From Rhodocyclaceae bacterium (GTDB taxonomy: Bacteria > Pseudomonadota > Gammaproteobacteria > Burkholderiales > Rhodocyclaceae): a stretch of DNA of 64,000 bases. The position numbers were made by a program, and so were the translations under genes. This document shows, piece after piece, positions 22-55,296 of this stretch. The stretch is from positions 124,001 to 188,000 of the forward strand of contig VBWA01000001.1 in assembly GCA_006218025.1 (NCBI GenBank). The letters run 5' to 3'. Each line of letters starts with the position of its first letter. Within the stretch, counting starts at the first letter, position 1. The notes beneath the pieces were generated by a model. That model did not search any database. It worked only from the letters and a program-made list of their open reading frames with translations, and was not told the DNA's origin.

Positions 22-46
22 CGCCGTCTCGCCAGCGCCGACTCTT
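22..46 (+). repeat. 24-nt dispersed element, copy 1
   Basis: Matches GCCGTnYCGCCA followed directly by GCGCCGACTYTT, a short element recurring about 13 times in this window. It faces copy 2 (85-108) head to head, with an ATTCCCGC palindrome between them. Confidence 0.7.
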
Positions 47-50
47 TGCC

Positions 51-76
51 GTCATTCCCGCGTAGGCGGGAATGAC
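51..76. repeat. ATTCCCGC-type palindrome, copy 1
   Basis: Palindrome of the form GTCATTCCCGC-n4-GCGGGAATGAC. It resembles the ATTCCC-N-GGGAAT short repeats (dRS3-like) found in many beta- and gammaproteobacteria. A second copy lies at 131-154 in the same gene-free stretch. Confidence 0.75.
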
Positions 77-84
77 GGAATCAC

Positions 85-222
85 AAAAGTCGGCGTTGGC
101 GGTACGGCGCCATCTTCAAGCCAACCTCTGGATTCCCGCCTGCGCGGGAATGACGGAGCGTGAGGAGTCGGCGCTGCTTCGCTTCGCCGATCAGTCCCCA
201 CAGTGCCGCCAGCGCCGACTTT
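85..222. repeat. Candidate miniature element bounded by inverted 24-nt repeats
   Basis: The left end (85-108) is the 24-nt element in minus orientation (AAAAGTCGGCG...GTACGGC). The right end (about 202-222) is the same element in plus orientation (GTGCCGCCAGCGCCGACTTT). The arrangement is that of terminal inverted repeats enclosing about 90 bases, with an ATTCCCGC palindrome and a partial extra copy near 164-175. There is no coding capacity and no clear target-site duplication. Calling it mobile is inference. Confidence 0.45.
131..154. repeat. ATTCCCGC-type palindrome, copy 2
   Basis: Second palindrome, GATTCCCGCC-TGC-GCGGGAATGAC, about 80 bases after the first. Both sit among copies of the 24-nt dispersed element. 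Apart from these repeats I see no gene in the first 317 bases. Confidence 0.75.
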
Positions 223-317
223 CCCCAAATGACGATGCCGCCCAATCCATTCCGAAGCCGGCCGCTTATCGAGTATTGTTGTCTCCTGATTCGTCAGCCC
301 CGTCTGGAGAAACCACC

Positions 318-596
318 ATGTCCAAGAACATCGTCGTATCCACTGTCGTTGCACTGATTGTCGTTGCCCTGGCGTTCGCGCTGAATCCTTCGCCCGAGAA
401 ACACCGGGAGGAGATCAGGAAGGCAATGGGAGAGCGCAGCCCCCTCGCCGCTTTGCTCGGCCTGGGCTCCTTGACCGCGTTCGCTTCCACCTACCATCCG
501 CTGGGTGTCGCTTCCTACACCACCGTGAATGATCGCGTTGTTTCGGTCGGGGCCTTCGGCGTGGTCGTCTTCATCGAGCCGTCGAAGGAGAAGTGA
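318..596 (+). CDS. Small membrane-anchored protein (DUF4359-like)
   Basis: A 92-residue protein with one hydrophobic segment at about residues 5-22 (IVVSTVVALIVVALAFALNP). After an amphipathic stretch (NPSPEKHREEIRKAMGE) come two weakly hydrophobic beta-like segments ending FGVVVFIEPSKEK. The layout (N-terminal anchor, NPS motif, C-terminal FGVVVF) resembles small DUF4359-type proteins, but I make that assignment from memory of the pattern only. The start at 318 is the first Met before the hydrophobic segment; reading further upstream would translate the repeat region. No partner gene is evident and the function is unknown. Confidence 0.6.
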   Translation: MSKNIVVSTVVALIVVALAFALNPSPEKHREEIRKAMGERSPLAALLGLGSLTAFASTYHPLGVASYTTVNDRVVSVGAFGVVVFIEPSKEK

Positions 597-717
597 GGCG
601 CGGGCCAAAGATCGCCGACTTGGCGAACTCGAGTCGCTGACAAGGAATCCGGCGCGGCACGGCCCGATGCGCGCTGAGGCTTTCACTCAAGGACACACGG
701 ACCTGCTGGAGACCGTC

Positions 718-1116: not shown

Positions 1117-1137
1117 GGGTACACCCGACGCGCCGGA

Positions 1138-1881: not shown

Positions 1882-2005
1882 GACCGCATTTCTCCTTTGG
1901 CATCGCGAGCAGTCTACTGCGCGTCCCGAAAGTTTTGCGTTACCGGCATCGAATGCCTGGTGCTTCCGCCGGATACAATCGGATTTCCAGGGACGCCGAA
2001 ACGCC

Positions 2006-2905: not shown

Positions 2906-3835
2906 CTACGGCGCCATGGTCGGCAGTATCCAGCCGTCGCGGATTTCGATCGAGCGCGAGCGGAGCAGTTCGCCGAGCAGCCAGGAGGCGAAATCCTCGT
3001 CGGTGAAACCCAGCATGCGCTGGTTGACGCTGTCGAAGAAGGGCACGCTCTTGAGGTAGGCCGGCAAGTCGTCCTCGCGCAGACGCTGCAGGTCGAGCAG
3101 GTTGAAGGTGAAGCAGGCGCGCACGGCATTGCGCCCGACGCGCGTGGAGTCGGCCTCGAAGGATTCCAGGCGCTTGAAGGCGCGGGCCAGGGCGGCATCG
3201 AAATCGTCGAAGGGCGCGCCGTGACCGGGAATGACGATGTCGACGCCGAGCCGGCCGATCATTTCGAGCGTGGCGCGGGTCGCCGGCAGGGCGTCCTTGC
3301 GGCCCATCAGCTCGCCGAAGATGATGCCGAAACCGTCCTGCCACAGCGCGTCGCCGGAGATCAGGATGCGTTTCTCGGCGCAGTGGTAGACCAGCGCTTC
3401 CATGTCGTGGCCAGGCGCCGGCAGCGCCTGCCAGGTCATGCCGCCCATTTCGAACTCGCTGTTGGCTTCGATCACGGCGTCGTGCGCGAAGCGGTGGCCG
3501 CGCTGCTTCGCGGCATCGAGCAGCAGGGCGTTGGTGTCCCATTCGGCGACCATGCGTTCGATGCCGGCCGGGATCACGATCTTGCAGCCGAAAGCCGCCT
3601 GCAGCGCGGCGTTGCCGCCGATGTGGTCGGAATGCGAATGGGTGTTGATCAGGCGGCCGAGCCCGGCGCCGCCGCGCCGTGCCGCCAGCGCCGACTTTAC
3701 GAGCTCGACCGTCTGCGGCGCATGGCCGACATAGCCGGCATCGACCAGCGTGGCCGACTCGCCCTCGAAGAACAGCACGTTGTTCGACGACAGCCAGCCG
3801 CGCTCGATGACCCGGATGCAGTCGGGCAGCTTCAT
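2906..3835 (-). CDS. MBL-fold metallohydrolase, last gene of the liu array
   Basis: A 309-residue metallo-beta-lactamase-fold hydrolase with the metal-binding HSHSDH motif at residues 66-71, a later LPAPGHD histidine, a SGDALW aspartate and a VIPGHG histidine. This set of ligands matches the glyoxalase II-like branch. A C-terminal helical region of about 100 residues resembles MBL proteins associated with acyl-CoA metabolism. The start ATG overlaps the stop of the DUF1289 gene (ATGA), so the two are translationally coupled. Residues about 47-53 (VKSALAA) are encoded by a copy of the 24-nt dispersed element. A thioester- or lactone-hydrolysing role in leucine breakdown is inference from context. 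Confidence 0.85.
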   Translation of the reverse strand: MKLPDCIRVIERGWLSSNNVLFFEGESATLVDAGYVGHAPQTVELVKSALAARRGGAGLGRLINTHSHSDHIGGNAALQAAFGCKIVIPAGIERMVAEWDTNALLLDAAKQRGHRFAHDAVIEANSEFEMGGMTWQALPAPGHDMEALVYHCAEKRILISGDALWQDGFGIIFGELMGRKDALPATRATLEMIGRLGVDIVIPGHGAPFDDFDAALARAFKRLESFEADSTRVGRNAVRACFTFNLLDLQRLREDDLPAYLKSVPFFDSVNQRMLGFTDEDFASWLLGELLRSRSIEIRDGWILPTMAP

Positions 3836-4945: not shown

Positions 4946-6949
4946 CTATTTTGAATCAGGCACGAATTCTACTAGCTCCGCACCATCGCTGACCTGCTCG
5001 CCGACGTTGAAATGAAAGGCCTTGACCAGCCCGGCGGCCGGTGCGGCTATCGTGTGTTCCATTTTCATGGCTTCGAGGATCAGCAGCGCCGCGCCCTTCT
5101 CCACCCTGGCGCCCACTGCGGCGATCAGCGCGATGACCTTGCCCGGCATCGGCGCGGTCAGGCCGCCCTCGGCGCCGCCGCCGCTGCCGGCGTGGAACAG
5201 CGGATCGATCGCGGAAAAGATGAAGGAGACGCCGTCGATGAAAACGTGGCGCCTTTCGTTGGCCGAGACCACGGTGACGTTGATGCGGCGGCCGCCGAGG
5301 TCGACGCGCAACTCGGTGCTGCCGGTGAAGCGCCCGGCCGCCGTGGTGGTCTGGCCTTCGAATTCCAGCGTGAAGCCGTCTGCGCCATAGCCGGCATTGA
5401 CGATCTTTTCGGTCTCGCCGGCGCGCAGCCTGATCTCGCGCCGGGCGGTGCCGTTCAGGCGCCAGCCGTCGCGCGCATGCCAGGGCGAATGCGGGTCGGG
5501 ACTTTCGACGGCTTCCGCCGCGGCGTAGGCCTGGTCGTGGATCAGCTCGGCCAGCGCGGCGACCAGCCAGGCTTCGGCCGGCGGCTCGACGCTTTCGGGA
5601 AAGAGGAAGGCGCGCTCGCGCTCGATCAGCCCGGTGTCGAGATCGGCCTGGGCGAAGGCCGGGCAGGCCACCAGCCGCGAGAGGAAGCCGATGTTGTTCG
5701 AGACGCCGACCACGCGGTAATCGGCCAATGCCTGCAGCATGCGTGCGAGGGCCCGTTCCCGCGTCTCGTCCCAGACGATCAGCTTGGCGATCATCGGGTC
5801 GTAGTGCGGCGAGATTTCGTCGTCCTGCTCGACGCCGGTATCGACGCGCACGTGCAGCGTCTCGGCCGGCGGCGCGAGGTGGATCAATTTGCCGATCGAC
5901 GGCAGGAAACCCTTGTCCGGGTCTTCGGCATAGATGCGCGCTTCCAGCGCGTGGCCGCGGATCGTGAGCTGTTCCTGCTGCAGCGGCAGCGTCTCGCCAG
6001 CGCCGACTTTCAGCTGCCACTCGACGAGGTCGAGGCCGGTGATCATTTCGGTGACCGGGTGTTCGACCTGCAGCCGCGTGTTCATCTCCATGAAGTAGAA
6101 GCTACCGTCCTGATTGACGATGAACTCAACCGTGCCGGCGCCGACGTAGCCGACCGCCTTGGCGGCATCGACTGCGGCCTTGCCCATCGCTGCGCGGCGC
6201 TCGGGCGGCATGTTGGGCGCCGGCGCCTCTTCGACGACTTTCTGGTGGCGGCGCTGCACCGAGCAGTCGCGCTCGAACAGATAGACGCAGTTTCCGTGGC
6301 GGTCGCCGAAGACCTGGATTTCGATGTGGCGCGGGCGCTGCAGGTATTTTTCGATCAGCACGTGCTGGTCGCCGAAGCTGGAGAGCGCCTCGCGCTTGCA
6401 GGAGGCCAGCGCATCGAGGAAGTCCTCGCTCCTGTCGACGGCGCGCATGCCCTTGCCGCCGCCGCCGGCCGCCGCCTTGATCAGTACCGGATAGCCGATC
6501 TTGTCCGCCTGCTGCCTCAGAAACTCGGGCTCCTGCTTGTCGCCGTGATAGCCGGGAGTCAGCGGCACGCCGGCCTTCTCCATCAGCTTCTTGGCTTCGG
6601 ACTTGGAGCCCATGGCGCGAATCGCGAACACCGGCGGGCCGATGAAGACAATGCCGTTCCGCTCGCAGGCCTCGGCGAACTCTTCGTTCTCGGAGAGGAA
6701 GCCGTAGCCCGGATGCACGGCCTGGGCGCCGGTGGCCAGCGCCGCAGCGATGATCCTGTCCGCCACCAGATAGGATTCCTTGGGCGGCGGCGCGCCGATG
6801 CAGACGGCTTCGTCGGCCAGCCGCACATGGCGCGCGCCGGCATCGGCTTCCGAATACACCGCGACGGTGCGGATGCCCATGCGCCGCGCGGTCTTGATCA
6901 CGCGGCAGGCTATCTCACCTCTATTGGCGATCAGTATTTTGGTAAACAT
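4946..6949 (-). CDS. liuD: Methylcrotonoyl-CoA carboxylase, biotin-carrying alpha subunit
   Basis: A 667-residue subunit combining biotin carboxylase (about 1-446; ANRGEIACRV start, AAGGGGKGMR ATP loop, EMNTRLQVEHPVTE) and, after a linker, a biotinyl domain with LEAMKMEHT whose lysine is residue 629. With LiuB it carboxylates 3-methylcrotonyl-CoA using ATP and bicarbonate. It lies 4 bases after liuC and before liuE, so this is the methylcrotonyl rather than the acetyl or geranyl type by context; geranyl-CoA carboxylase is the nearest alternative. A sequence matching the 24-nt element (about 5991-6013) encodes KVGAGETLP, but relatives have a similar peptide there, so this match may be coincidental. 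Confidence 0.95.
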   Translation of the reverse strand: MFTKILIANRGEIACRVIKTARRMGIRTVAVYSEADAGARHVRLADEAVCIGAPPPKESYLVADRIIAAALATGAQAVHPGYGFLSENEEFAEACERNGIVFIGPPVFAIRAMGSKSEAKKLMEKAGVPLTPGYHGDKQEPEFLRQQADKIGYPVLIKAAAGGGGKGMRAVDRSEDFLDALASCKREALSSFGDQHVLIEKYLQRPRHIEIQVFGDRHGNCVYLFERDCSVQRRHQKVVEEAPAPNMPPERRAAMGKAAVDAAKAVGYVGAGTVEFIVNQDGSFYFMEMNTRLQVEHPVTEMITGLDLVEWQLKVGAGETLPLQQEQLTIRGHALEARIYAEDPDKGFLPSIGKLIHLAPPAETLHVRVDTGVEQDDEISPHYDPMIAKLIVWDETRERALARMLQALADYRVVGVSNNIGFLSRLVACPAFAQADLDTGLIERERAFLFPESVEPPAEAWLVAALAELIHDQAYAAAEAVESPDPHSPWHARDGWRLNGTARREIRLRAGETEKIVNAGYGADGFTLEFEGQTTTAAGRFTGSTELRVDLGGRRINVTVVSANERRHVFIDGVSFIFSAIDPLFHAGSGGGAEGGLTAPMPGKVIALIAAVGARVEKGAALLILEAMKMEHTIAAPAAGLVKAFHFNVGEQVSDGAELVEFVPDSK

Positions 6950-9452: not shown

Positions 9453-9568
9453 GCTGCCTCCGCCGGGCCGCCCCAAGGGGGCAGCAAGTGTTCAACCGGA
9501 AGCCGCCTCGGCGGCTGAACCGGGGTCACCCCCTTTCCTGGAAAGGGGGGTGGGGGGAATGTAGTCAT
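9453..9568 (-). repeat. GC-rich composite repeat upstream of liuB
   Basis: About 115 bases filling the gap before liuB. Read on the gene strand, it begins just after the previous stop with a hairpin (CCCCCTTTCCAGGAAAGGGGG) and ends with CGGCCCGGCGGAGGCAGC directly before the liuB ATG. It therefore supplies liuB's ribosome-binding GGAGG. A close relative fills the gap at 12101-12227. The hairpin may also slow or terminate transcription. Confidence 0.7.
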
Positions 9569-10261: not shown

Positions 10262-10909
10262 TCATAGTTGTCCTGTGCCCCAGCCGGCCAGCGGATGGCC
10301 GGGCATCAGTTGGTAGGGGTGCTGCCAGCCGGGCAGGCCGGCGATGCGTTGCGACCAGTCGCGGATGTTCGGGTAGTCGTTCCAGTCCACGCCGATTTCC
10401 TCGGGCCAGAAGACATAGCCTGCCAGAGAAAAGTCGGCGATGGTGGGACAGTGGCCGACAACCCACTGGCGCCCGGCGAGATGCGCATCGAGCACCTTCC
10501 ACGCCGCCTCGGCGCGAGTACGGAACATGGCGATGATGGCCGGGTCGGTGGCCGGCACGAAATTGCGCAAGTAGCGCAAAGTGGCCGTGTAGCTGGTGAA
10601 CTTGTGGTTGTCGAACAGCGTCCAGCGCAGGATTTCGCGCCGCTCCTCGTTGTCCTGCGGGCCGAACTTGCCCAGCACTTCGGCGAGATAGTCGAGGATC
10701 ACGCCGGACTGCGAATACGTCCGACCGCGATGTTCGAGCAGCGGCACTTCGCCCATGACGTTGAGCGCCCGGTATTCCGGCGTCTTGGTCGCGCCGTGGA
10801 AGAAATCGACGAAGCGCGGCTCCCAGTCGGCGCCGCTAACGGCCAGCATCAGCGCCGGCTTGTAGGCGTTGCCGGACTGGGCGAAGCAATGCAGCGTGTA
10901 CTCGGCCAT
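10262..10909 (-). CDS. Glutathione S-transferase family protein
   Basis: A 215-residue cytosolic GST. The N-terminal thioredoxin-like half has LHCFAQSGNAYKPALMLA (catalytic Ser/Cys region) and GEVPLLEHRGRTYSQSGVILDYL, the cis-Pro and Ser glutathione-binding motif. The C-terminal helical half contains CPTIADFSLAGYVFW, the conserved N-capping ADFSLAGY box. It may detoxify reactive enoyl-CoA-derived electrophiles during branched-chain catabolism, but this is inference from its place in the liu array. A good ribosome site (GGGAGGAACC) precedes the start. Confidence 0.9.
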   Translation of the reverse strand: MAEYTLHCFAQSGNAYKPALMLAVSGADWEPRFVDFFHGATKTPEYRALNVMGEVPLLEHRGRTYSQSGVILDYLAEVLGKFGPQDNEERREILRWTLFDNHKFTSYTATLRYLRNFVPATDPAIIAMFRTRAEAAWKVLDAHLAGRQWVVGHCPTIADFSLAGYVFWPEEIGVDWNDYPNIRDWSQRIAGLPGWQHPYQLMPGHPLAGWGTGQL

Positions 10910-10940
10910 GGTTCCTCCCGCGTATCGTGGCTTAAAGCTT

Positions 10941-10994
10941 GTGAAGAAATCGTAGCGAGCGGGCCGCAGCGGGGTGCGGCCGGAGCGCAGCTAC
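10941..10994 (-). repeat. 54-nt repeat, copy 1 (at the 3' end of an acyl-CoA dehydrogenase gene)
   Basis: Starts GTGAAGAAATCGTAGCGAGC and ends GCGGCCGGAGCGCAGCTAC. It is identical to the copy at 15477-15530 except for one base. The stop codon of the acyl-CoA dehydrogenase gene (10991-10993) is inside this copy. Confidence 0.85.
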
Positions 10995-12100: not shown

Positions 12101-12227
12101 TTGGCTGTCTCCGCCGGGCCGTCCCAAGGAGACAGCCGGCCAACAAACCGGAAGGCAAGGGGCCGGAGGGCCCTTGCCTGAACCGTGGTCACCCCCTCTC
12201 GTGGAGAGGGGGCTGGGGGGCGTGCCG
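12101..12227 (-). repeat. GC-rich composite repeat between enoyl-CoA hydratase and acyl-CoA dehydrogenase genes
   Basis: Relative of the 9453-9568 repeat. After the hydratase stop comes a hairpin (CCCCCTCTCCACGAGAGGGGG) followed by TGACC, then other GC-rich sequence, ending GGACGGCCCGGCGGAGACAGCC just before the GTG start. It again provides the ribosome site of the following gene. Confidence 0.7.
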
Positions 12228-14298: not shown

Positions 14299-15465
14299 TC
14301 AATTGAGTGTGGCTAGCGCCATTTCATAGCGCTCGGAAATATGTTCGGGGCTGCTGACCGTGAGGCCGAGGTCGCGCACCAGGCCGTCCTTGAGGCCGTA
14401 GATCCAGCCGTGGATGGTCAGGTTCTGCCCGCGCTGCCAGGCATCCTGGACGACGATGGTGCGCGAGACGTTGATCACCTGCTCCAGCACGTTGAGTTCG
14501 CAAAGCCGGTCGTGGCGCCTGTCCTCGGGCAGCTCATCGACGCGCGCCAGATGCTTGACGTGGACGTCCTGCACGTGGCGCAGCCAGAGGTCGGCAAGGC
14601 CGACGCGCTGGTGCTGGAGCGCCGCCTGAACGCCGCCGCAACCGTAATGGCCGACGACCATGATGTGCTTCACCTTGAGCACGTCGATGGCGAACTGGAT
14701 CACCGACAGGCAGTTGAGGTCGGTATGCACCACGATGTTGGCGACGTTGCGATGGACGAAGACCTCGCCCGGCAGCAGGCCGACGATCTGGTTGGCCGGC
14801 ACGCGCGAATCGGAACAGCCGATCCAGAGATATTCGGGCGCCTGGAGATGCGACAGCCGCTCGAAATAGTCCGGATCGACCTCGCGCATCTGCCGCGCCC
14901 AGGCGCGGTTGAAATCGAACAGGTGGTGTAGGGTCTGGTTGTTGAGCTGCTTCTCGGACCAGTTTTCCAGGTCGAGCGCGAGGAACTGCGTGCCTTCGAG
15001 CGAGGTCTGGTAGTAGGCCGGCGCCTCCTGGAAGCCCAGTTCGCGGTAGAGCTTCACCGCGATGCGCATGGCCGGCAAGGTGTCGAGCATGATGGTGCAG
15101 TAGCCGATCTGCCGCGCGGCGCGTATCGCGGCCAGGGCCAGGTCGCGGCCGACTCCCAGGCCGCGAAAGCCGGGCTCGACATAAAGCCGCTTGAACTCGC
15201 AGACCCCTTCGGCCAGCGGCCGGATGCCGACGCAGCCGGCGCCCCTGCCATTGACCTCGGCGTAAAACAATCGTCCCTCGGGTGCCGCATAACGCCCCGG
15301 CAGGCTGGCCATTTCCTCGTCGAAATTCTGAAAACACAGGTCGACGCCGAGCCAGCCTGCGTAATTGCGGATGAACTGGCGCACCTGTTCCAGTTCGGCA
15401 ACATTCTCGGCACCCAGCACCCGAATCGCCGTACCGCCAGCGCCAACTTTCACCAGGTCGCTCAT
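14299..15465 (-). CDS. GNAT acetyltransferase - beta-carbonic anhydrase fusion
   Basis: A 388-residue two-domain protein. Residues about 13-165 form a GNAT domain with the acetyl-CoA loop VEPGFRGLGVGRDL (R101-x-x-G-x-G). Residues about 170-388 form a beta-carbonic anhydrase with CSDSR (C217, D219, R221) and GHYGCGG (H273, C276), i.e. the full zinc site of the E. coli Can type. It should hydrate CO2 to bicarbonate; the acetyltransferase target is unknown. The position among liu genes suggests bicarbonate supply to methylcrotonyl-CoA carboxylase (inference). Residues 5-12 (VKVGAGGT) are encoded by a 24-nt dispersed element, just after the start ATG at 15465. Confidence 0.92.
   Translation of the reverse strand: MSDLVKVGAGGTAIRVLGAENVAELEQVRQFIRNYAGWLGVDLCFQNFDEEMASLPGRYAAPEGRLFYAEVNGRGAGCVGIRPLAEGVCEFKRLYVEPGFRGLGVGRDLALAAIRAARQIGYCTIMLDTLPAMRIAVKLYRELGFQEAPAYYQTSLEGTQFLALDLENWSEKQLNNQTLHHLFDFNRAWARQMREVDPDYFERLSHLQAPEYLWIGCSDSRVPANQIVGLLPGEVFVHRNVANIVVHTDLNCLSVIQFAIDVLKVKHIMVVGHYGCGGVQAALQHQRVGLADLWLRHVQDVHVKHLARVDELPEDRRHDRLCELNVLEQVINVSRTIVVQDAWQRGQNLTIHGWIYGLKDGLVRDLGLTVSSPEHISERYEMALATLN
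15428..15451 (+). repeat. 24-nt dispersed element inside the GNAT-carbonic anhydrase gene
   Basis: Copy GCCGTACCGCCAGCGCCAACTTT in plus orientation, antisense to the gene. It encodes KVGAGGTA near the N terminus of the fusion protein and leaves the reading frame open. Confidence 0.75.
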
Positions 15466-15476
15466 GGCGCAACCCT

Positions 15477-15530
15477 GTGAAGAAATCGTAGCGAGCGTGC
15501 CGCAGCGGGGTGCGGCCGGAGCGCAGCTAC
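15477..15530 (-). repeat. 54-nt repeat, copy 2
   Basis: The same 54 bases as at 10941-10994 with a single substitution. It lies in the 149-base gap upstream of the GNAT-carbonic anhydrase start. The rest of this gap shows nothing recognisable. Confidence 0.85.
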
Positions 15531-15614
15531 CGGAATGCACGTGGTTGTGCATGAGGATAGCGAGCACCGCCCAAGCCCCGATCCGGAACGCGCAGTAGAT
15601 TTATTCATAGGGTT

Positions 15615-18383: not shown

Positions 18384-19493
18384 TTGAACGCACCCCTGAA
18401 CGCTCCGATCGCCTACCTGCACGAGACCGCCCCGGATCCCGGCGTGGCCGTGCCCGTCGCCCCCGGCATCGAATGGCTGTGCATGCCCCTGCCTTTCGCG
18501 CTGAACCACATCAACCTCTGGCTGCTGGCCGACGGCGAGGGTTATGCGGCCGTCGATACCGGCTTCGCGCTGGATCCGATCAAGCAGGCCTGGGAGTCGG
18601 TGCTGGCGGGACGGGGCCGGGAATTCGCGGAGCACGGCTCCGCGCCGGCGCCGGTCGACGACAGTGCAATGTCGCCGAGGGCCTCCGCAGGAGGCCGAAG
18701 ATTGACGCGCTGCATCGTCACCCATTGCCACCCCGACCATCTCGGCCTCGCCGCCTGGCTGGAAGAGGAAACCGGCGCCGGACTGTGGATCGCGCAGGGC
18801 GAATACCTCGCCGCGCACATGATCGTGGAGCAGGTCGCCGGCTACTCGATCAGCTTCATGGTCGAGTTCTTTCGCCAGCACGGACTCGACCAGGCGCGCA
18901 TCGACGGCCTGATCGCGCGCGGCAACGGCTACAAGAAGGGTGTCCCGGCGATTCCGACCACCTACCGCCGCCTGTTCCCCGACCAGTTGCTGAAGATCGG
19001 CGACCACGAATGGCGCACCATCGTCGGCCACGGCCACGCACCGGAACACATGAGTTTGTATTGCGCGGAACTGGGCGTGCTGATTTCCGGCGACATGCTG
19101 CTGCCGCGCATCTCAACCAATATTTCGGTGACGGCCAGCACGCCGCATGCGGACCCGCTTGGCCTGTTCCTCGACTCCATCGACAAGTTTCGCGTACTGC
19201 CCGAAGACACGCTGGTGCTGCCCTCGCATGGCCGTCCCTTCCGCGGCCTGCATGCCCGCATCGAGCAGCTTCACGCCCACCATGCCGAGCGCTGCGAGGT
19301 GCTGGTCGAGGCCTGCCGCGGCGAGGCAAAGAGCGCCGCCGACCTGCTCGGCGTGCTGTTCGGCCGCGAACTGCCCGACCCGCACCAGACCATGTTTGCC
19401 ATGGGCGAAGCCATCGCCCATCTGAATTACCTTGAACACGCAGGAAAATTGCAGCGCATCGAAGAGAACGGTCTTGTCCGTTACCAAAGTTAA
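18384..19493 (+). CDS. MBL-fold metallohydrolase, divergent from liuR
   Basis: A 369-residue metallo-beta-lactamase-fold hydrolase with the HCHPDHLG metal motif, VGHGHAPEH, ISGDMLLP and LPSHGRPF as further ligand-bearing segments, plus a C-terminal helical region. A Gly/Ala/Pro/Ser-rich stretch of about 28 residues (around residues 80-107) separates the first strands from TRCIVTHCHPDH; relatives are usually short here. The likely start is TTG at 18384; the nearest upstream ATG (18367) hits a stop. It is transcribed away from liuR with a 123-base shared upstream region. A thioester-hydrolase role linked to fatty or branched acyl-CoA metabolism is possible. Confidence 0.85.
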   Translation: MNAPLNAPIAYLHETAPDPGVAVPVAPGIEWLCMPLPFALNHINLWLLADGEGYAAVDTGFALDPIKQAWESVLAGRGREFAEHGSAPAPVDDSAMSPRASAGGRRLTRCIVTHCHPDHLGLAAWLEEETGAGLWIAQGEYLAAHMIVEQVAGYSISFMVEFFRQHGLDQARIDGLIARGNGYKKGVPAIPTTYRRLFPDQLLKIGDHEWRTIVGHGHAPEHMSLYCAELGVLISGDMLLPRISTNISVTASTPHADPLGLFLDSIDKFRVLPEDTLVLPSHGRPFRGLHARIEQLHAHHAERCEVLVEACRGEAKSAADLLGVLFGRELPDPHQTMFAMGEAIAHLNYLEHAGKLQRIEENGLVRYQS

Positions 19494-22748: not shown

Positions 22749-23300
22749 ATGCCGTCACCCCGTGTCCTGATTCCCCGCCAAACCGTTCCCGCGCTCGACG
22801 TGCCGCTGCTCGGCGGCGGACGCTTCAATGTCGCCGCATCGCCAGCGCCGACTTTCAGCATGATCGTGTTCTATCGCGGCCTGCATTGCCCGCTTTGCGC
22901 GAAATACCTGATGGAACTGGAGCGGCTGCACGCCGACTTCGTCGCGCGCGGCGTCCAGCCGGTTGCGATCAGTTCCGACAGCGAAGAACGCGCGCAGGCC
23001 ATGGCCGACAAGGTCAGCGCGAAGGCGCTGCGTTTCGGCTACGAGCTCCCGCTCGCCGTCGCACGCCAATGGGGCCTGACCATTTCCACCTCGCGCGGCA
23101 AGACCTCGATCGGCATCGAGGAGCCGGCGCTCTTCTCCGAGCCGGGCCTGTTTCTGGTGCGGCCGGACGGCACGCTCTACTGGGGCTCGACCCAAACCAT
23201 GCCCTTCGCCCGGCCGCACTTCGACGAAATCATCGGCGCCATCGATTTCGTCATCAAGAACGACTACCCCGGACGCGGGGAGTACACCGGCGAGTTGTGA
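22749..23300 (+). CDS. Peroxiredoxin-like thioredoxin-fold protein
   Basis: A 183-residue protein of the AhpC/TSA superfamily with FYRGLHCPLCAKYLMELERL, a CxxC motif in the peroxidatic position, followed by PVAISSDSEERA, typical of the peroxiredoxin-like (AhpC-like, two-cysteine) branch. It probably reduces peroxides or acts as a thiol oxidoreductase. Residues about 29-35 (ASPAPTF) just before the first core strand are encoded by a copy of the 24-nt dispersed element (22832-22855), an apparent in-frame insertion or replacement. The start at 22749 begins MPSPRVLIPRQ. A single gene. Confidence 0.85.
   Translation: MPSPRVLIPRQTVPALDVPLLGGGRFNVAASPAPTFSMIVFYRGLHCPLCAKYLMELERLHADFVARGVQPVAISSDSEERAQAMADKVSAKALRFGYELPLAVARQWGLTISTSRGKTSIGIEEPALFSEPGLFLVRPDGTLYWGSTQTMPFARPHFDEIIGAIDFVIKNDYPGRGEYTGEL
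22832..22855 (+). repeat. 24-nt dispersed element inside the peroxiredoxin-like gene
   Basis: Copy GCCGCATCGCCAGCGCCGACTTTC in sense orientation, read as ASPAPTF without breaking the frame. Confidence 0.75.
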
Positions 23301-23400: not shown

Positions 23401-23468
23401 AATGAAAACCGCAGTGGAGGGAGGCCGCCGCGGTCGCCCCCTTCGTTGCGAAGGGGGCTGGGAGTGAA

Positions 23469-28371: not shown

Positions 28372-28390
28372 TGAAGCAAAGCGCTACAGG

Positions 28391-28456: not shown

Positions 28457-28498
28457 TCTCGCCGCTGCGGATCCTCGCCGTAGCGGATAGGAGCTTTC

Positions 28499-29137: not shown

Positions 29138-31011
29138 GCCATGCCTTCAGGTTCTTCCGCGCCGGCGGCTTCGACCAGGTGCGCATCGATACGGCCGCCG
29201 ACCTGCTGGCCCTGAAGGAACTCGACCAGAAACTGTGGGTCGCGCTGTCCTGCCCGGTGAAAGGCATCGAGTTCGACACGCGCACGCTGGCGCTGATCGA
29301 TACCGACAAGGACGGGCATGTCCGCGCCCCGGAACTTCTGGCGGCCATCGACTGGGCCGCGGCGCGGCTGAACGATCCCGCCCTGTTGGCGCAGCAACTC
29401 GCCGGCGTGCCGCTCGCCGCGATCAAGGACGAGGCCATCCTCGCCGCCGCGCAGGGACTGCTGCCCGCGGGCGGTGAGCTGGTCACGGTCGACGCCGCCA
29501 GCGCCGCCGAGGCGGAATACTCGGCGCGTGCACTGGCCGCCTGGGAAGCGGCCGGCGGCGCAGTGAAGCCCCTGGGCGAGGCGACCGAAGCCGCCTGCGC
29601 CGCGGTCGCCGCCGTCAGGGAAAAGCTCGACGATTTCTTCGTCCGTTGCCGCTTGGCAGCTTTCGACACGCGCGCCGGCGACGCGATGAATGCGTCCGAC
29701 GATGCCCTGAAGTCATTGGGCGCCGCGGCGCTTTCCGCCGCGCACGCCGATATCGCCGCCCTGCCGCTGGCAAAAGTTCCCACAGGGACGCAGAGCGCTG
29801 GCGCTGGCGCTACGGTGCCTTTGGGTGCCGGCAGCGATTCGGGCATCAATCCGGCCTGGGGCCAGCGCATTGCCGCCTTGCGCGAGGCCGCCGTGGTGCC
29901 GCTGCTCGGCGCCCGCGACGCCGTCTCGGAATCCGACTGGCTGGCGATACAGGACCAGCTTGCCGGCTATGTCGCCTGGCAGGCCGCGCGGCCCGCCGGT
30001 CTGCCGCCCGAAGCCGAGGCGGTGCGCGACCTCGAGCGCCTGGCCCGCTATGTGCGCGATCTGCTGCCGCTGGCCAACAACTTCGTCGCCTTCCGCGATT
30101 TCTACACGCGGCAGCCGGGTGCGCCAATGCGAGCGACATTCCAAATCGGCACCCTGTATCTCGACGGCCGCTCGGCCGAACTCTGCGTGGCGGTTACCGA
30201 CGCCGCCAAGCATGCGGCGCTGGCCGGGCTGTCGCGCATCTGTCTGGTGTATTGCGACTGCTTCCGCAACGAGGAGAAGCTGTCGATCGCCGCCGCGTTC
30301 ACCGCCGGCGATTCGGATCAGCTGATGGTCGGCCGCAACGGCGTGTTCTACGATCGCCAGGGACGCGACTGGAATGCCACCATCACCAAACTCGTGGAGC
30401 ATCCGATCAGCCTGCGCCAGGCTTTCTGGTCGCCCTACAAGCGCCTGATGCGCATGGTCGGCGAACAACTGCAGAAGATCGCCGCGAGCAAGGCCGCCGC
30501 CGCCGAAGGCAAACTCGCCGAAGCCGCCCTCGGCGTCGGCAGGAAGGTCGACGGGCCGCCCGCCGCCGCTCCAGCCAAACCCGCGGCGGCACAACAGGCC
30601 TTCGATGTCGGCAAGTTCGCCGGCATCTTCGCCGCGATCGGCCTTGCCGTCGGCGCCATCGGCACCGCCCTCGCGGCCATGCTCGGCGGCCTGCTCGCGC
30701 TCAAGTGGTGGCAGATGCCGATCGCCATCGCCGGCCTGATGCTGCTGATTTCCGCCCCGGCCATGGTGCTCGCCTGGTTCAAGCTCAGAAGCCGCAACCT
30801 CGGCCCGATCCTCGACGCCAACGGCTGGGCCGTGAATGCGCGCGCGCGCATCAACATCCCCTTCGGCACCTCGCTGACGCAGTTGGCGCAACTGCCGGAA
30901 GGCGCCGAACGCGCGCTGACCGATCCGTATGCGGAGAAGGAAAGGCCGTGGAAGGTTTACATCGCCATCGCCGTCGTGATCTTCGTCGCGCTGGCGTGGT
31001 GGACGCGCTGA
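29134..31011 (+). CDS. EF-hand-like membrane protein of unknown function
   Basis: A 625-residue protein I do not recognise. Residues 56-67 (DTDKDGHVRAPE) are a canonical 12-residue EF-hand calcium loop (D1, D3, D5, G6, E12). The central 400 residues are Ala-rich and soluble. The C terminus has two adjacent hydrophobic segments (about 496-520 and 527-548) and a last one at about 605-623 (YIAIAVVIFVALAWW), so the bulk is anchored to the inner membrane. It overlaps the YcbL-like gene (ATGA). A segment near residues 210-235 (TGTQSAGAGATVP) is low-complexity and may contain a decayed copy of the 24-nt element. Calcium binding is a prediction only. Confidence 0.75.
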   Translation: MSHAFRFFRAGGFDQVRIDTAADLLALKELDQKLWVALSCPVKGIEFDTRTLALIDTDKDGHVRAPELLAAIDWAAARLNDPALLAQQLAGVPLAAIKDEAILAAAQGLLPAGGELVTVDAASAAEAEYSARALAAWEAAGGAVKPLGEATEAACAAVAAVREKLDDFFVRCRLAAFDTRAGDAMNASDDALKSLGAAALSAAHADIAALPLAKVPTGTQSAGAGATVPLGAGSDSGINPAWGQRIAALREAAVVPLLGARDAVSESDWLAIQDQLAGYVAWQAARPAGLPPEAEAVRDLERLARYVRDLLPLANNFVAFRDFYTRQPGAPMRATFQIGTLYLDGRSAELCVAVTDAAKHAALAGLSRICLVYCDCFRNEEKLSIAAAFTAGDSDQLMVGRNGVFYDRQGRDWNATITKLVEHPISLRQAFWSPYKRLMRMVGEQLQKIAASKAAAAEGKLAEAALGVGRKVDGPPAAAPAKPAAAQQAFDVGKFAGIFAAIGLAVGAIGTALAAMLGGLLALKWWQMPIAIAGLMLLISAPAMVLAWFKLRSRNLGPILDANGWAVNARARINIPFGTSLTQLAQLPEGAERALTDPYAEKERPWKVYIAIAVVIFVALAWWTR

Positions 31012-31689: not shown

Positions 31690-31811
31690 GACGCAAGCCT
31701 ACCTCATCCAAAGCCGTCGTCCAAGCGGCGAGCTCGGCGGAGGGCTTCGAGCGCGGCGAGGATGTCGGGGAGGCGGGATTTCCAGCGGCCCTTGCTTGGA
31801 GCGCCGCCGTC

Positions 31812-31835
31812 GCCGTACCGCCAGCGCCGACTCTT
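31812..31835 (+). repeat. 24-nt dispersed element, intergenic copy
   Basis: Copy GCCGTACCGCCAGCGCCGACTCTT, essentially the consensus, in the 268-base gap between the nucleotidyltransferase gene and the PatZ-like gene. The rest of that gap shows no gene; a promoter for the 31958 gene is expected but not clear. Confidence 0.8.
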
Positions 31836-35889: not shown

Positions 35890-35924
35890 GGGTGACGGCT
35901 TGGGTCGAAGCTCCGAGGGTAGCA

Positions 35925-35948
35925 GGAGTCGGCGCTGGGGAGACGGCG
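35925..35948 (-). repeat. 24-nt dispersed element, intergenic copy (diverged)
   Basis: Minus orientation copy AGGAGTCGGCGCTGGGGAGACGGCG between the MFS gene and the ArsR-rhodanese gene; a few bases differ from the consensus. Confidence 0.6.
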
Positions 35949-35965
35949 AAAAGCGCTTCCCGGTG

Positions 35966-44744: not shown

Positions 44745-46241
44745 ATGCTGGTCTGGTTCGTCGTGCTCTATCTGATGGTGTCGGTCGGCATCGGATTGTT
44801 TGCAGCAACGCGCGTCCATAACGCCAGGGATTTCGCCGTTGCCGGCCGCAGCCTGCCGCTGCCGGTCGTCACCGCCACGGTGTTCGCCACCTGGTTCGGC
44901 GCCGAAGCCGTGTTCGGCGTCTCGGCCACCTTCGTCAAGGACGGCCTCACCGGCGTCGTCGCCGACCCCTTCGGTTCATCGATGTGCCTGATCATCGCCG
45001 GCGTCGTCTTCTCGCGCTATCTCTACAAGCTCAACATCATCACCCTGGGCGACTTCTACCGCATGCGCTACAACCGCACCGTGGAGGTGGTCACCACGGT
45101 CTGCATCGTGCTCTCCTACCTGGGCTGGGTGGCGGCGCAGATCAAGGCGCTGGGGCTGATTTTCTTCGTCGTCACCGACGGCGCCGTCTCGCAGAACGCC
45201 GGCATGATCCTCGGCGCGGCCATCGTGCTGACGTACACGGTGTTCGGCGGCATGTTCTCGGTGGCGATCCTCGATTTCGTGCAGATGGCCGTGTCGATGG
45301 GCGGCCTGCTGTTCATCGCCTGGACCGTCAGCGGCAAAGTCGGCGGTGGCGCCACGGCGATCATCGACCACGCGCGTGCCGCGGGCAAGCTGGATTTCTT
45401 TCCGGCTCCCGACCCCTGGCTGTGGCTCACCTTCCTCGGCACCTGGATGACCATGATGCTCGGCTCGATTCCGCAACAGGACGTGTTCCAGCGCATCACC
45501 TCGGCGAAGACCGCCAACATCGCGCTGTGGGGCTCGATCCTCGGCGCCTCGATCTATTTCTGCTTCACCTTCGTGCCGATGTTCATCGCCTACTCGGCGA
45601 CCCTGATCGACCCGGCGCTGTTCAACGACCTGCTGGCGAAAGATACGCAACTGGTGCTGCCCACGCTGGTGCTGCAGCACACGCCGCTGTTCGCCCAGGT
45701 GCTGTTCTTCGGCGCGGTGCTGTCGGCCATCATGAGCTGCTCCTCGGCCACCTTGCTGGCGCCCTCGGTCACCTTCGCCGAGAACGTGATCCGCGGCTTC
45801 TATCCCGGCATGGGCGACCACCAGTTCCTGCGCGTCATGCGCGGCTGCCTGGTGGTATTCACCTGCATCGTGCTCGGCTTCGCGCTGAAGTCGGAGGCCT
45901 CGATTTTCAAGATGGTCGAGAACGCCTACAAGGTGACCCTGGCCGGCGCCTTCGTGCCGCTGGCCGCCGGCATCTTCTGGCGCCGCGCGACGACCCAGGG
46001 CGCGCTGGCCGCGACCTTCGGCGGACTCGTCTCCTGGGTTCTGATCGAGGTGCTGATCGGCGAGGCCAGCCCGGTGCCGCCGCAACTGATCGGGCTCGGT
46101 GTCTCGATTTTCGGCATGGTCGCCGGCTCGCTGCTGCCGCAATGGGTCGGCCACCGGCTGCCCGGACATGACCCGCACGCGATACTGCACCACCATGCCG
46201 CCGCGCAGACCCACCATGCCGAGCCGGAACACAAGCATTGA
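44745..46241 (+). CDS. Sodium:solute symporter family protein
   Basis: A 498-residue SSS-family transporter with about thirteen membrane segments. FAVAGRSLPLPVVTATVFATW is the usual segment 1-2 region, TYTVFGGMFSVAILDFVQM matches segment 6, and GAVLSAIMSCSSATLLAPSV is the conserved segment 9 block with the sodium-site Ser residues. The cytosolic tail is His-rich (DPHAILHHHAAAQTHHAEPEHKH, listed by its ends only), which could bind metal. AAGGAGG precedes the start, 11 bases after ubiB. The solute is unknown. Confidence 0.92.
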   Translation: MLVWFVVLYLMVSVGIGLFAATRVHNARDFAVAGRSLPLPVVTATVFATWFGAEAVFGVSATFVKDGLTGVVADPFGSSMCLIIAGVVFSRYLYKLNIITLGDFYRMRYNRTVEVVTTVCIVLSYLGWVAAQIKALGLIFFVVTDGAVSQNAGMILGAAIVLTYTVFGGMFSVAILDFVQMAVSMGGLLFIAWTVSGKVGGGATAIIDHARAAGKLDFFPAPDPWLWLTFLGTWMTMMLGSIPQQDVFQRITSAKTANIALWGSILGASIYFCFTFVPMFIAYSATLIDPALFNDLLAKDTQLVLPTLVLQHTPLFAQVLFFGAVLSAIMSCSSATLLAPSVTFAENVIRGFYPGMGDHQFLRVMRGCLVVFTCIVLGFALKSEASIFKMVENAYKVTLAGAFVPLAAGIFWRRATTQGALAATFGGLVSWVLIEVLIGEASPVPPQLIGLGVSIFGMVAGSLLPQWVGHRLPGHDPHAILHHHAAAQTHHAEPEHKH

Positions 46242-50950: not shown

Positions 50951-51862
<912 letters not shown>

Positions 51863-51888
51863 TCCTGCCCCGCCGGCGCGGCGCAACA

Positions 51889-51912
51889 GAAGTCGGCGTT
51901 AGCGATACGGCG
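51889..51912 (-). repeat. 24-nt element, left flank of the lipoprotein gene
   Basis: AGAAGTCGGCG-TTAGCGATACGGC: minus orientation, outward end to the left. With 52596-52619 it forms an inverted pair enclosing about 730 bases. Confidence 0.75.
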
Positions 51913-52003
51913 GGCGGAAGATATCTGTAGTGCATTTGCTTGCATTGAGGGATATTCCCTTGTATTGTCGGGGTCCAAATTCCAATGTCTTAGGGAGCAG
52001 TTG

Positions 52004-52519: not shown

Positions 52520-52595
52520 CGCTCGAAGCCGACACATTGCAGCGATGGCGGCAAGCAGCATCGACCTGATATTCATTTCACTGCCGGCATGAATC

Positions 52596-52619
52596 GCCGT
52601 CCTGCCGGGGCCGACTCTT
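52596..52619 (+). repeat. 24-nt element, right flank of the lipoprotein gene
   Basis: GCCGTCCTGCCG-GGGCCGACTCTT: plus orientation, the outward end to the right. Partner of 51889-51912. Confidence 0.7.
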
Positions 52620-52677: not shown

Positions 52678-52794
52678 CGTGTTACCTGCCTCCAGTTGGC
52701 CATCCGTCCGGCAGCGCACCGCCCGACAAGCTTGGCCCAGTCCTGGGCGAAACTTCGACCAAAGGCAACGGAGGTTCGCTATGATTGTCTGCTG

Positions 52795-53586
52795 ATGTCC
52801 GCGAGCATCCATCTCCCTCCCCTGCCGCAACTCTCCAGCCGCGCCTTCGCCGTCTGGCGACGCAATTTCCTGGTCTGGAAGAAGCTGGCGATCCCCTCGC
52901 TGCTGGGCAACCTGGCCGACCCGATGATCTACCTGTTCGGCCTCGGCTACGGCCTGGGCGGGCTGCTGCCGCAGATCAACGGCGTGTCCTACATCGCCTT
53001 TCTGGCTGCCGGCACGGTGTGTTCCTCGACCATGAACGCCGCCTCCTTCGAGGCGTTGTATTCGGCCTTCTCGCGCATGCATGTGCAGCGCACCTGGGAA
53101 GCGATCATGAACGCGCCGGTCACGCTGGAGGACGTGATGGCGGGCGAACTGCTTTGGGCGGCAGCCAAGGCGACGCTCTCCGGCACCGCGATCCTGGTGG
53201 TGATTTCGCTGCTGGGCTTCGTCGCCTCGCCACTGGCGCTGTGGGCACTGCCGGTGATTTTCATCACCGGGCTGGCCTTCGCCGCGCTCGGCCTGATCGT
53301 CACCGCGCTGGCGCCTTCCTACGATTTCTTCATGTACTACTTCACGCTGTTCATCACGCCGATGGTGCTGCTGTGCGGCGTGTTCTTCCCGGCCGACCAG
53401 TTGCCGCCTCTGGTGCAGGCGGTGGCGGCCTGGCTACCGCTGACGCACGCGGTGGCGCTGGTGCGGCCGCTGCTGTTCGGCGAGATTCCCGCGGGCATTC
53501 TCGGTCACGTCGCGGCGCTTCTGGCGGTGGCGGCGATCGCCTTCTGGATCGCGCTGACGCTGATCCGGCGCCGCCTGCTGAAGTAA
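52795..53586 (+). CDS. ABC exporter permease (NodJ-like)
   Basis: A 263-residue ABC-2 type permease with six membrane segments (GNLADPMIYLFGLGYGLGGLL, TLSGTAILVVISLLGFVASPL, YFTLFITPMVLLCGVFFPADQLPP). The FFPADQLPP loop is typical of the NodJ/DRA family. It should pair with the ATPase encoded at 50951. The start at 52795 overlaps the stop of a 4-codon frame (ATG at 52781, reading M-I-V-C) that carries the only good ribosome site (GGAGG), so the permease may be translated by coupling to this mini-frame. Confidence 0.92.
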   Translation: MSASIHLPPLPQLSSRAFAVWRRNFLVWKKLAIPSLLGNLADPMIYLFGLGYGLGGLLPQINGVSYIAFLAAGTVCSSTMNAASFEALYSAFSRMHVQRTWEAIMNAPVTLEDVMAGELLWAAAKATLSGTAILVVISLLGFVASPLALWALPVIFITGLAFAALGLIVTALAPSYDFFMYYFTLFITPMVLLCGVFFPADQLPPLVQAVAAWLPLTHAVALVRPLLFGEIPAGILGHVAALLAVAAIAFWIALTLIRRRLLK

Positions 53587-53606
53587 AATGAAAAAATGCA
53601 ATGACA

Positions 53607-53707
53607 CCCACCCCCTCCCGTCCTCCCCCTCGCGGGGGAGGCTATTGATTGGGTCGCTGCGCTCGAATATCACCGGGTGCTCTTATTTTTGTATTTCACG
53701 TTAAGCA
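53607..53707 (+). repeat. About 95-nt leader repeat, copy 2 (before thiS)
   Basis: Homologue of 50856-50950: CCTCCCCCTCGCGGGGGAGG hairpin, GGTCGCTGCGCTCGAATATCAC middle and GTATTTCACGTTAA end just before the thiS start. No TPP-riboswitch features are visible. Confidence 0.7.
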
Positions 53708-53908
53708 ATGGACATCATCATCAACGGCGAGGCGCAGAGCCTGCCGGCACCCCTGACCGTGGCTGAACTGCTCGCGGCGCGCGGCCTCGAGGGCAGGCGC
53801 GTCGCGGTGGAGAGAAACGGCGAGATCGTGGCCAGGAGCCGCCATGCCGAAACCCTGCTCGCCGCGGGGGATCGCATCGAAATTGTCGTCGCCGTCGGCG
53901 GCGGCTGA
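53708..53908 (+). CDS. thiS: Sulfur carrier protein ThiS
   Basis: A 66-residue ubiquitin-fold sulfur carrier for the thiazole half of thiamine. It ends with the required Gly-Gly (VVAVGGG), which is adenylated and then thiocarboxylated. [21 protein letters not shown] is the typical start. It is followed 21 bases later by thiG. The -GGG end has one extra Gly, which is still normal for the family. Confidence 0.95.
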
Positions 53909-53929
53909 GTCATTTCAGGAAGCAAAGCC

Positions 53930-54739
53930 ATGAACCCAGATTCTCTCGTCATCGCCGGCAAGGCCTACCACTCGCGCCTGCTGGTCGGCACCGGCAAGTA
54001 CAAGGACTTCGCGCAGACGCGCGCCGCCATCGACGCCTCGGGCGCCGAGGTCATCACGGTGGCCATCCGCCGCACCAACATCGGCCAGGAACCGGGCCAG
54101 CCCTCGCTGCTGGAAGTGCTGCCGCCCTCGCAATTCACCATCCTGCCCAACACGGCCGGCTGCTACACGGCCGACGACGCCGTGCGCACCCTGCGCCTCG
54201 CGCGCGAGCTGCTCGACGGCCACGCGCTGGTCAAGCTCGAAGTGCTGGGCGATCCGCAGACGCTGTTCCCCAACATGCCGGAAACCCTCAAGGCCGCCGC
54301 GACGCTGGTCAAGGACGGTTTTCAGGTGATGGTGTATTGCGCGGACGATCCGATCCAGGCGCGCATGCTGGAAGACATCGGCTGCGTCGCCATCATGCCG
54401 CTGGCGTCCCTGATCGGCTCCGGCATGGGCATCCTGAATCCGTGGAACCTGAAGCTGATCATCGAGCAGTCGAAAGTTCCGGTGCTGGTCGATGCCGGCG
54501 TCGGCACGGCGTCGGATGCGGCGATTGCGATGGAGCTCGGCTGCGACGGCGTGCTGATGAATACCGCGATTGCCGGCGCGCAGGATCCGGTGCTGATGGC
54601 CGGCGCCATGAAGAAGGCGGTCGAGGCCGGCCGCGAAGCCTTCCGCGCCGGCCGCATGCCGAAGAAGTATTACGCGGCGACACCCAGCTCGCCCGGCGGC
54701 GGACTCATTGGCCAAAACGGCGGCCACGGCAGCAAGTGA
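53930..54739 (+). CDS. thiG: Thiazole synthase ThiG
   Basis: A 269-residue TIM-barrel enzyme that joins deoxyxylulose phosphate, dehydroglycine and ThiS-carried sulfur into the thiazole phosphate. The active-site lysine lies in [10 protein letters not shown]; other conserved blocks are [26 protein letters not shown] and [30 protein letters not shown]. The length is normal. It follows thiS, and the next gene starts inside its stop (GTGA). Confidence 0.96.
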
Positions 54740-55296
54740 AACGCGTTCTTGCCTGCGTGCTGCTGGGCGCGCTGCTGGCTTCGGCACGCGCCGACGACGC
54801 GGCGCCGCCGGTCAGCCCTGCCGCAACCGCGGCGATGACTCCGGCCACACTGGAGGTCATGCCCCGGCGCATGGGCTATGCGCTCGACCAGCCGGAAATA
54901 CTGATTCGCCAGCGCCTGTTCGGCCTGGCGCACGGCGTGTCGATGCTCGCGGCGGCCTGTCTCGATCTGCCCGAGCATTCGGCACCGGTCCAGGATGCCT
55001 ACGCGGCCTGGCATGCGACGCAGGCGAGGACCATCGAAGCCATGGCGCAGGATCTCGCCCGCTACTACTTCGGCCCGCGTGCGGATGAAGCCCGCTGGCA
55101 GGATCTGGCGCGGGCGCTGAACCTCAACGACAGCATCCAGCCTTCGCTGGGCGGCGTCAGCCTGCAGGATGCCTGTGCCACCCTGCCCGCCGCGCTCGCC
55201 CGGCCGCGTTACGAGTTCGGCAGGCTGCTGACGGAATCCGCGACGCCTGCAGTCGCCGTATCACCAGCGCCGACTTCTGCGACACCCGCCCAATGA
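54736..55296 (+). CDS. Exported protein of unknown function
   Basis: A 186-residue protein with a signal peptide ([18 protein letters not shown]). The mature part is helical and Ala-rich ([38 protein letters not shown]) with two conserved-looking cysteines. I recognise no family. GTG start at 54736 overlaps the thiG stop, and its own stop overlaps trmB, so it is translationally coupled on both sides. The last residues ([14 protein letters not shown]) are encoded by a copy of the 24-nt dispersed element, so the natural C terminus may have been replaced. Confidence 0.72.
55255..55278 (+). repeat. 24-nt dispersed element at the 3' end of an exported-protein gene
   Basis: Copy GCCGTATCACCAGCGCCGACTTCT in sense orientation, encoding AVSPAPTS just before the stop codon. 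Confidence 0.72.

Follow-up and report, generated by a model that had tools for sequence, protein, structure and literature searches.

DNA uptake sequences (DUS) in the Neisseriaceae and uptake signal sequences (USS) in the Pasteurellaceae belong, according to a 2025 paper, to the only families known to have an uptake-sequence system; the same paper gives the known sequences a length of 9-12 nt and ComN/PpdA as the predicted receptor of the USS (PMC12616744). The signature of such sequences is described for both families in two other papers (PMC3630211, PMC1939737), where the DUS appears as a short sequence with a CTG core that is required for transformation and 65% of the USS of one H. species lie in open reading frames (PMC3630211). 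This work deals with a dispersed motif in a stretch of 64,000 nt from a Rhodocyclaceae bacterium (assembly GCA_006218025.1, contig VBWA01000001.1, positions 124,001 to 188,000 of the forward strand), called here the window, and in the genomes of related bacteria. The motif had first been noticed from the letters of the window alone (the original prediction), as an element of about 24 nt placed between genes and, in frame, inside them. Judging from its sequence properties, it is probably a self-marker similar to a DNA uptake sequence, belonging to a clade with competence genes that includes Sulfuritalea, Rugosibacter, Candidatus Desulfobacillus and allied genera of the Sterolibacteriaceae and Rhodocyclaceae.

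Like the DUS of Neisseriaceae (PMC3630211), this motif is present in high copy number, in and between genes, with dialects among relatives and some relatives without any copy, and it resembles the USS of Pasteurellaceae in being a high-copy motif with variants between groups (PMC3630211). It differs from the DUS in being bipartite and in the rarity of close inverted pairs, and from the USS in having another, GC-rich sequence without AT-rich flanks. The consensus in Sulfuritalea and in the genus labelled g19 is longer than the DUS and contains no CTG, which is present in the dialect of another genome, G010, as part of ACTGACT. The letters GCCGT are common to this motif and the DUS GCCGTCTGAA as given in PMC1939737, and this may be chance. 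Other short dispersed repeats, such as REP and ERIC, are also found as many dispersed copies. They are palindromic, largely intergenic and inserted, whereas the present motif is not palindromic, lies in genes at 63 of 90 sites and is made by substitution. Chi and the sequences that orient FtsK are likewise over-represented, also in genes, but they are short and strand-biased and this motif is long and strand-balanced.

The source genome, labelled G000, comprises 4.44 Mb in 141 contigs. A weight matrix was refined on the window and 20 further stretches (464 kb altogether) from 78 core matches used as seeds. It gave the consensus [AG]T-CGCCGT-N-Y-CGCCAGCGCCGACT-YTY, of 27 positions, with soft edges and flanks lacking clear conservation, and in these 464 kb it finds 94 sites of 13 bits or more against one for the reversed matrix at 12 bits. 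Throughout the genome the 14-nt core, with up to one mismatch, has 704 copies (341 forward, 363 reverse) and its reversed control 10, while a 22-mer allowed three mismatches has 789 and its control 4. Genome counts no higher than expected, which the original prediction had named as grounds for abandoning the element, were therefore not found, and over-representation of this kind is a property of DUS and USS. In the window the 24-mer is matched at 20 or more of its 24 positions in 16 places, with no such place in any of 10 Markov-4 shuffles, and the weight matrix recognises 16 sites of at least 20 bits, against a single site in 20 Markov-4 shuffles taken together. A 12-nt half alone, with up to one mismatch, is matched 14 times (100 shuffles: mean 1.5, largest 4). 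A scan of the window against Rfam yielded no matches.

The copies of the window are given below, together with the gene that hosts the best-studied one, an open reading frame which we, like the earlier reader, take to be comM. Gene limits come from a crude caller of our own that may trim starts or miss small genes, and "intergenic" refers to these calls.

22..46, plus strand: motif copy, intergenic, 41.3 bits.
85..109, minus strand: motif copy, intergenic, 36.8 bits.
199..223, plus strand: motif copy, intergenic, 29.4 bits.
3675..3699, plus strand: motif copy in gene 2906-3835 (minus), antisense, phase 1, peptide VKSALAARR, 33.1 bits.
5987..6011, plus strand: motif copy in gene 4946-6949 (minus), antisense, LKVGAGETL, 33.5 bits.
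10429..10453, minus strand: motif copy absent from the earlier list, in gene 10262-10909 (minus), sense, phase 0, 24.8 bits.
15427..15451, plus strand: motif copy in gene 14299-15567 (minus), antisense, VKVGAGGTA, 38.4 bits; G001 has it at the aligned place.
18592..18616, minus strand: motif copy absent from the earlier list, in gene 18384-19493 (plus), antisense, phase 1, 25.0 bits.
22832..22856, plus strand: motif copy in gene 22749-23300 (plus), sense, VAASPAPTF, 36.5 bits; G001 has it at the aligned place.
26821..28371, plus strand: presumed comM, 516 aa, recognised from the open reading frame and its relatives.
27405..27429, plus strand: motif copy in comM, sense, FAVPPAPTL, 39.3 bits; common to several genera.
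29793..29817, minus strand: weak motif copy, probably decaying, absent from the earlier list, 17.6 bits; the aligned places in G001, L051, L061 and L066 have stronger copies.
31811..31835, plus strand: motif copy, intergenic, 41.2 bits.
35924..35948, minus strand: motif copy, intergenic, but within the open reading frame 34633-36024 if the longest start is used, 32.6 bits.
45335..45359, minus strand: motif copy absent from the earlier list, in a plus-strand gene, antisense, GKVGGGATA, 30.4 bits; 25 nt identical in G001.
51888..51912, minus strand: motif copy, intergenic, but within the open reading frame 51040-51930 if that is a gene, 29.8 bits.
52595..52619, plus strand: motif copy, intergenic, 28.2 bits.
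55254..55278, plus strand: motif copy near the 3' end of a plus-strand gene, sense, VAVSPAPTS, 38.2 bits.

The twelve places originally reported, as well as the weaker one near 5991, were all recovered within 4 nt, and the dispersed sequence is real and not random; that list was incomplete, since it lacked the sites at 10429, 18592 and 45335 and the weak one at 29793, all on the minus strand. Copies occur both between and inside genes with unbroken frames, as had been said. Nine of the 16 window sites fall in genes by the crude calls instead of the six first counted. The two peptide readings proposed, A-V-P-P-A-P-T in sense and K-V-G-A-G-G-T in antisense, hold exactly or closely for six of these nine, and the sites at 3675, 10429 and 18592 are read in other frames.

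Placement was studied with the sites of at least 20 bits in the same 464 kb, which hold 400 called genes and are 90.8% coding. Outside genes there are 27 of the 90 sites, compared with about 8 expected in the approximately 9% of non-coding DNA (binomial P 2e-8), an enrichment of around threefold that is approximate because of the crude gene caller. Presence in genes together with enrichment in non-coding DNA is a trait of DUS and USS. The 63 genic sites are divided into 31 sense and 32 antisense, they are spread fairly evenly along the length of the proteins, and they use five of the six reading frames: phase 2 accounts for 28 antisense and 20 sense sites, phase 1 for 4 antisense and 6 sense sites, and phase 0 for 5 sense sites. 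Codon phase 2 is thus preferred, in 48 of 63, without being exclusive, and because of these frame counts AVPPAPT and KVGAGGT are favoured readings and not the only ones. The strand and frame check that had been proposed therefore gave balanced strands and a partial frame preference. With regard to replication, the copies lie on both strands, as in DUS and USS, and no significant bias of orientation was found, a weak trend still being possible: the association of strand with genome half in G001 has P 0.087 (halves cut at 1.9 Mb, origin not located), and that of strand with the GC skew of the stretches has P 0.091 in G080 and 1.0 in both G000 and G001. On contig C7 the sites are spaced more evenly than at random (57 sites, coefficient of variation (CV) 0.73, with 0.3% of 2000 simulations as low), and on contig C1 not clearly so (31 sites, CV 0.86, 29% of simulations). 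Neighbouring pairs closer than 300 nt number five on these two mapped contigs, four of them in opposite orientation and none under 63 nt from start to start; with so few close pairs a terminator role as in Neisseria was discarded, no scan for terminators having been made.

The alignment of host proteins with orthologues, suggested earlier as a way to separate insertion from substitution, was carried out with 175 sites of at least 20 bits from all fetched stretches, two duplicate loci being excluded; 52 had an alignable orthologue. The motif was masked before alignment, and the 509 comparisons, dominated by comM, comprise 231 ungapped with the motif, 205 ungapped without it, 53 gapped without it and 20 gapped with it, where "with" has the slightly loose meaning of any 14-bit motif in the aligned stretch. 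Ungapped alignments therefore make up 205 of the 258 motif-less comparisons, the majority in comM, which indicates that the motif arises by base substitution. Outside comM, motif-less orthologues of sites in G046, G019 and G001 also align without gaps, several other sites are common to different genera, and partly matching versions occur at the same place in relatives. Origin by substitution and persistence at orthologous places are features of DUS and USS; empty sites lacking exactly the element, as an inserted mobile element would leave, were not found in these comparisons.

The copy at 27405 provides the clearest case. The comM of the source genome shares 79-92% identity with its counterparts in Sulfuritalea, Rugosibacter and allied metagenome-assembled genomes, from which we take the organism to be a Sulfuritalea or a very close relative. 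The copy falls in a stretch that is variable among the relatives without the motif. Motif-bearing relatives have it at the same columns; of those lacking it, several have equal length and other letters, some of them part-matching, and the more distant ones are also gapped. The same peptide at all sites in distant species would have spoken against the element, and distant species do not have it at this place. Codons were compared in 14 comM sequences chosen for having the motif, a selection that shows which letters are held and not how often they are retained. Thr is encoded by ACT in all 13 rows with Thr, a codon that makes up 6.8% of Thr codons in the source genome, and for the second Pro 11 of 14 rows use CCA (4.9% of Pro codons). 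The fourfold position of the Val codon, which the motif leaves free, varies (pairwise identity 0.37). Identity at fourfold third positions is 0.78 within the motif, as against 0.55 elsewhere in comM, and 11 of 415 other nine-codon windows attain the motif value. The constraint acts on the DNA.

Relatives carry dialects of the motif, as happens with DUS and USS. G080, of the same genus (g19) as G019, has G-TGCCGT-CC-CGCCAGCGCCGA[CG]TTT (70 sites in 360 kb); G010 has CGCCGT[GC]Y..G....[GC]ACTGACTTT (46 sites in 216 kb, against 2 for the control); and G008 has CAGC[AG]CCGAC (15 sites). The skeleton CGCCGT-N12-GACTTT is constant and at fixed spacing, with T as first letter in g19 and a right arm that is GA[CG]TTT in g19 and GACTYT in Sulfuritalea, and the middle 12 positions are largely conserved within the Sulfuritalea and g19 dialects. 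Two dialects seem to coexist in g19. No dialect is claimed for G023, where matrix refinement ran away (442 matches against 24 for the control), and dialect seeds numbered one in G536 and none in G543. When five motif-poor genomes (80 kb of each) were searched de novo for 10-mers, nothing comparable emerged; this is a weak negative, because the same search, run on positive controls, found the motif in G000 and G010 but missed it in G080.

The motif is confined to one clade of Sterolibacteriaceae and Rhodocyclaceae, with apparent losses and relics. Among 199 genomes of the family, 24 from 10 genera have 22 to 639 copies of the exact skeleton, and the other 175, which include the g19 members G019, G080 and G547, have no more than 9; at least G019 and G080 have the TG dialect, missed by the skeleton pattern. 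Counts also differ within genera (g10: 441, 376, 425 and 4; g23: 76 and 1, the last genome being 79% complete), and G543 has no motif while three congeners have it. In a survey of 399 genomes across the order (51 families), the Sulfuritalea 22-mer with up to three mismatches was frequent (319 to 789) in 4 of 13 genomes of the own family, and all 386 genomes outside it had 13 matches or fewer, with reversed-pattern controls also reaching 13. Outside the family the skeleton reaches a maximum of 14 copies, in G181, and 5 or fewer in the others. The 10 copies of G181 (family f38) that were listed include both Sulfuritalea and G010 dialect middles. In the otherwise motif-poor G083, four of five skeleton copies lie within 41 kb (G083:C1:1461265-1502266), and this cluster may have come from a donor that has the motif.

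The motif was followed on a tree built from 46 ComM proteins, a row being counted as motif-bearing when its locus had one or more 18-bit sites for every 10 kb (G010 was labelled by hand because of its dialect, and the own row likewise). All 16 motif-bearing rows belong to one well-supported group of 28 rows; at least seven changes are needed, or four if only starred branches are counted, and none of 500 shuffles was as low. Within the Sulfuritalea group, L053 and L054 have no site in 21.5 and 14.0 kb, and the single match of at least 8 bits in each sits where relatives have a full copy, which we read as apparent losses with relics.

DUS and USS are scarce in foreign DNA, and a single island, in the motif-rich congener G001, offers a comparison. 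Here comM, intact in the source genome, is split by 60.5 kb (G001:460604-521132) at the place matching window 27718-27720, comM being a known island target in other bacteria. The island has a lower GC content (0.594) and inverted ends TGAGACTTCCA and TGGAAGTCTCA (loci L132, L431, L432, L133), and it contains no site of 14 bits or more. Stretches retrieved from outside the island have 19 sites in 73.9 kb and give an expectation of 15.6 (Poisson P 1.7e-7), those stretches having been picked for matching the window; a fairer value, from 676 core copies in the 3.80 Mb of G001, is 10.8 (P ~2e-5).

High copy number, strand symmetry, substitution as the source of the genic sites, a preference for weakly constrained DNA, dialects, losses with decay and the lack of the motif in new DNA together point to a third clade with uptake sequences. 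According to the mechanism we propose, double-stranded DNA with CGCCGT-N12-GACTTT and the dialect-specific middle would be bound preferentially by a DNA receptor on the cell surface, most probably a type IV minor pilin. Kin DNA fragments that include a copy would be taken up and recombined more often, and biased uptake would spread consensus-like variants at every place where protein sequence and regulation allow it. Such a drive would generate hundreds of copies by point substitution, and these would lie on either strand and preferably between genes or at permissive points of coding sequence; it would leave recently acquired DNA without the motif, let the dialect change between genera and allow decay once the preference is lost. 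Competence, the uptake preference, the receptor and the drive itself are what we infer from these patterns. With rather less assurance, we lean towards a third, independently evolved system of DNA-uptake specificity, betaproteobacterial, whose signal would be long and bipartite, with the constant arms CGCCGT and GACTTT 12 nt apart, a switchable middle that generates genus dialects and a receptor without a simple ComP counterpart. Among the literature matches listed, which leave preprints and most subscription papers outside, nothing described a motif of this kind in the clade, so that a report elsewhere is possible.

Several observations weigh against an uptake sequence. The motif has 25-27 nt, compared with the 9-12 nt of known uptake sequences (PMC12616744), and its copies are counted in hundreds instead of thousands. 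Close inverted pairs are rare, the 53 gapped motif-less comparisons are real cases, and the weak, non-significant strand trends leave some slight room for a replication-linked role. The empty island would also be expected of any motif that accumulates slowly in a lineage, and G001 keeps hundreds of copies though its comM is split. Viral contigs do hold the motif: the exact 22-mer occurs in at least 120 stretches of contigs filed as viral, which may be phage or host flank. In 80 of these loci (L311-L390) there are 121 sites, and once the selecting one of each is left aside they are sparse (0.57 per 10 kb).

The receptor candidates weigh in the same direction, and so does the presence of comEC where the motif is scarce or lacking. 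comEC is present in 15 of 15 and 19 of 19 genomes examined, motif-rich or not; motif-poor genera also have it, and the motif-less G543 retains it, for which reason it was dropped as a marker of lost competence. comEC and comM are compatible with competence but not telling. As in the Neisseriaceae, these genomes have pilins of the Pfam family ComP_DUS (PF16732), but here such pilins occur in 17 of 17 genomes, motif-rich and motif-poor alike, and do not track the motif, so this route to a receptor was uninformative. A four-pilin operon (C122:46.3-48.8 kb in the source genome), which we take to be MSHA-like and whose genes receive generic pilin names or none from Pfam and NCBIfam, is common to G000, G010, G510 and G080; G543 does not have it. 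Between G000 and G080 its genes share 45-61% identity, compared with about 25-44% for ordinary minor pilins among the matches listed. Five of the 24 motif-rich genomes (G515, G574, G046, G527 and G045) do not have its MshO-like gene, which is found in 72 of 172 others, a count that leaves out G019, G080 and G547 of g19, all three of which have it; this occurrence does not match the motif, and the comparison of pilins was set aside as a route to the receptor.

Part of the same evidence can be read in terms of an intracellular binding site, kept by selection for a chromosome-organising, recombination (Chi-like), replication or nucleoid protein. The conservation at orthologous places, the slightly even spacing on one of two contigs, the weak strand trends in G001 and G080 and the failure of comEC to track the loss of the motif would all suit it. 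We hold it unlikely, since known Chi and FtsK sites are far shorter than 27 informative positions, the strands are balanced with no skew effect in G000 or G001, genic copies are equally sense and antisense, dialects differ between genera and loss is patchy. A Chi-like or replication signal in particular was set aside for lack of a significant orientation bias, the weak trend notwithstanding.

The bipartite arms, at fixed spacing across dialects, recall Type I sites and hence a mark for DNA methylation or for avoidance of restriction. Such sites are not expected to be over-represented, and the Sulfuritalea and g19 dialects also keep most of the 12 central positions constant, which makes this highly improbable. 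No more credit is due to a short mobile element, inserted as 24 nt between genes and in frame inside them: dispersed copies in frame and the gapped fifth of the motif-less comparisons (53 of 258) are what it would predict, but the mostly ungapped orthologues largely contradict insertion, and the part-matching versions in relatives, unconserved flanks and soft edges also disagree with it. As for the peptide tag of the original prediction, or a favoured AVPPAPT or KVGAGGT that would generate the DNA repeat through codon or peptide bias, it fits the preference for phase 2. With 27 of 90 sites outside genes, both strands and five frames in use, rare codons kept, ungapped orthologues and restriction to a clade, it is ruled out for practical purposes.

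If an uptake sequence is indeed the right explanation, switches and losses of dialect inside one genus would allow speciation through uptake barriers to be seen. A third lineage in which dialects, differences among congeners, losses and relics all occur could help to understand how specificity of uptake arises, shifts and disappears, and what it requires of a receptor. The motif would also separate native from recently acquired DNA and may help the genetic tractability of these bacteria.

The window contains other repeats. Between the first motif copies (region 48-176) there are inverted repeats with ATTCCCGC...GCGGGAATGACGG at 54-98 and 132-176, which resemble small palindromic repeats. A 54-nt sequence with arms made of a C-run and a G-run has three copies (9515-9568, 12178-12231 and 23423-23476, the last two with 83% and 61% identity to the first), and a direct repeat of 63 nt with 94% identity is found at 10935-10997 and 15471-15533. 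Finally, from the end of comM onwards (28369-28488), some 65-120 nt without Rfam match recur at 83-92% identity in several places of G001, G038, G046, G064 and G069.

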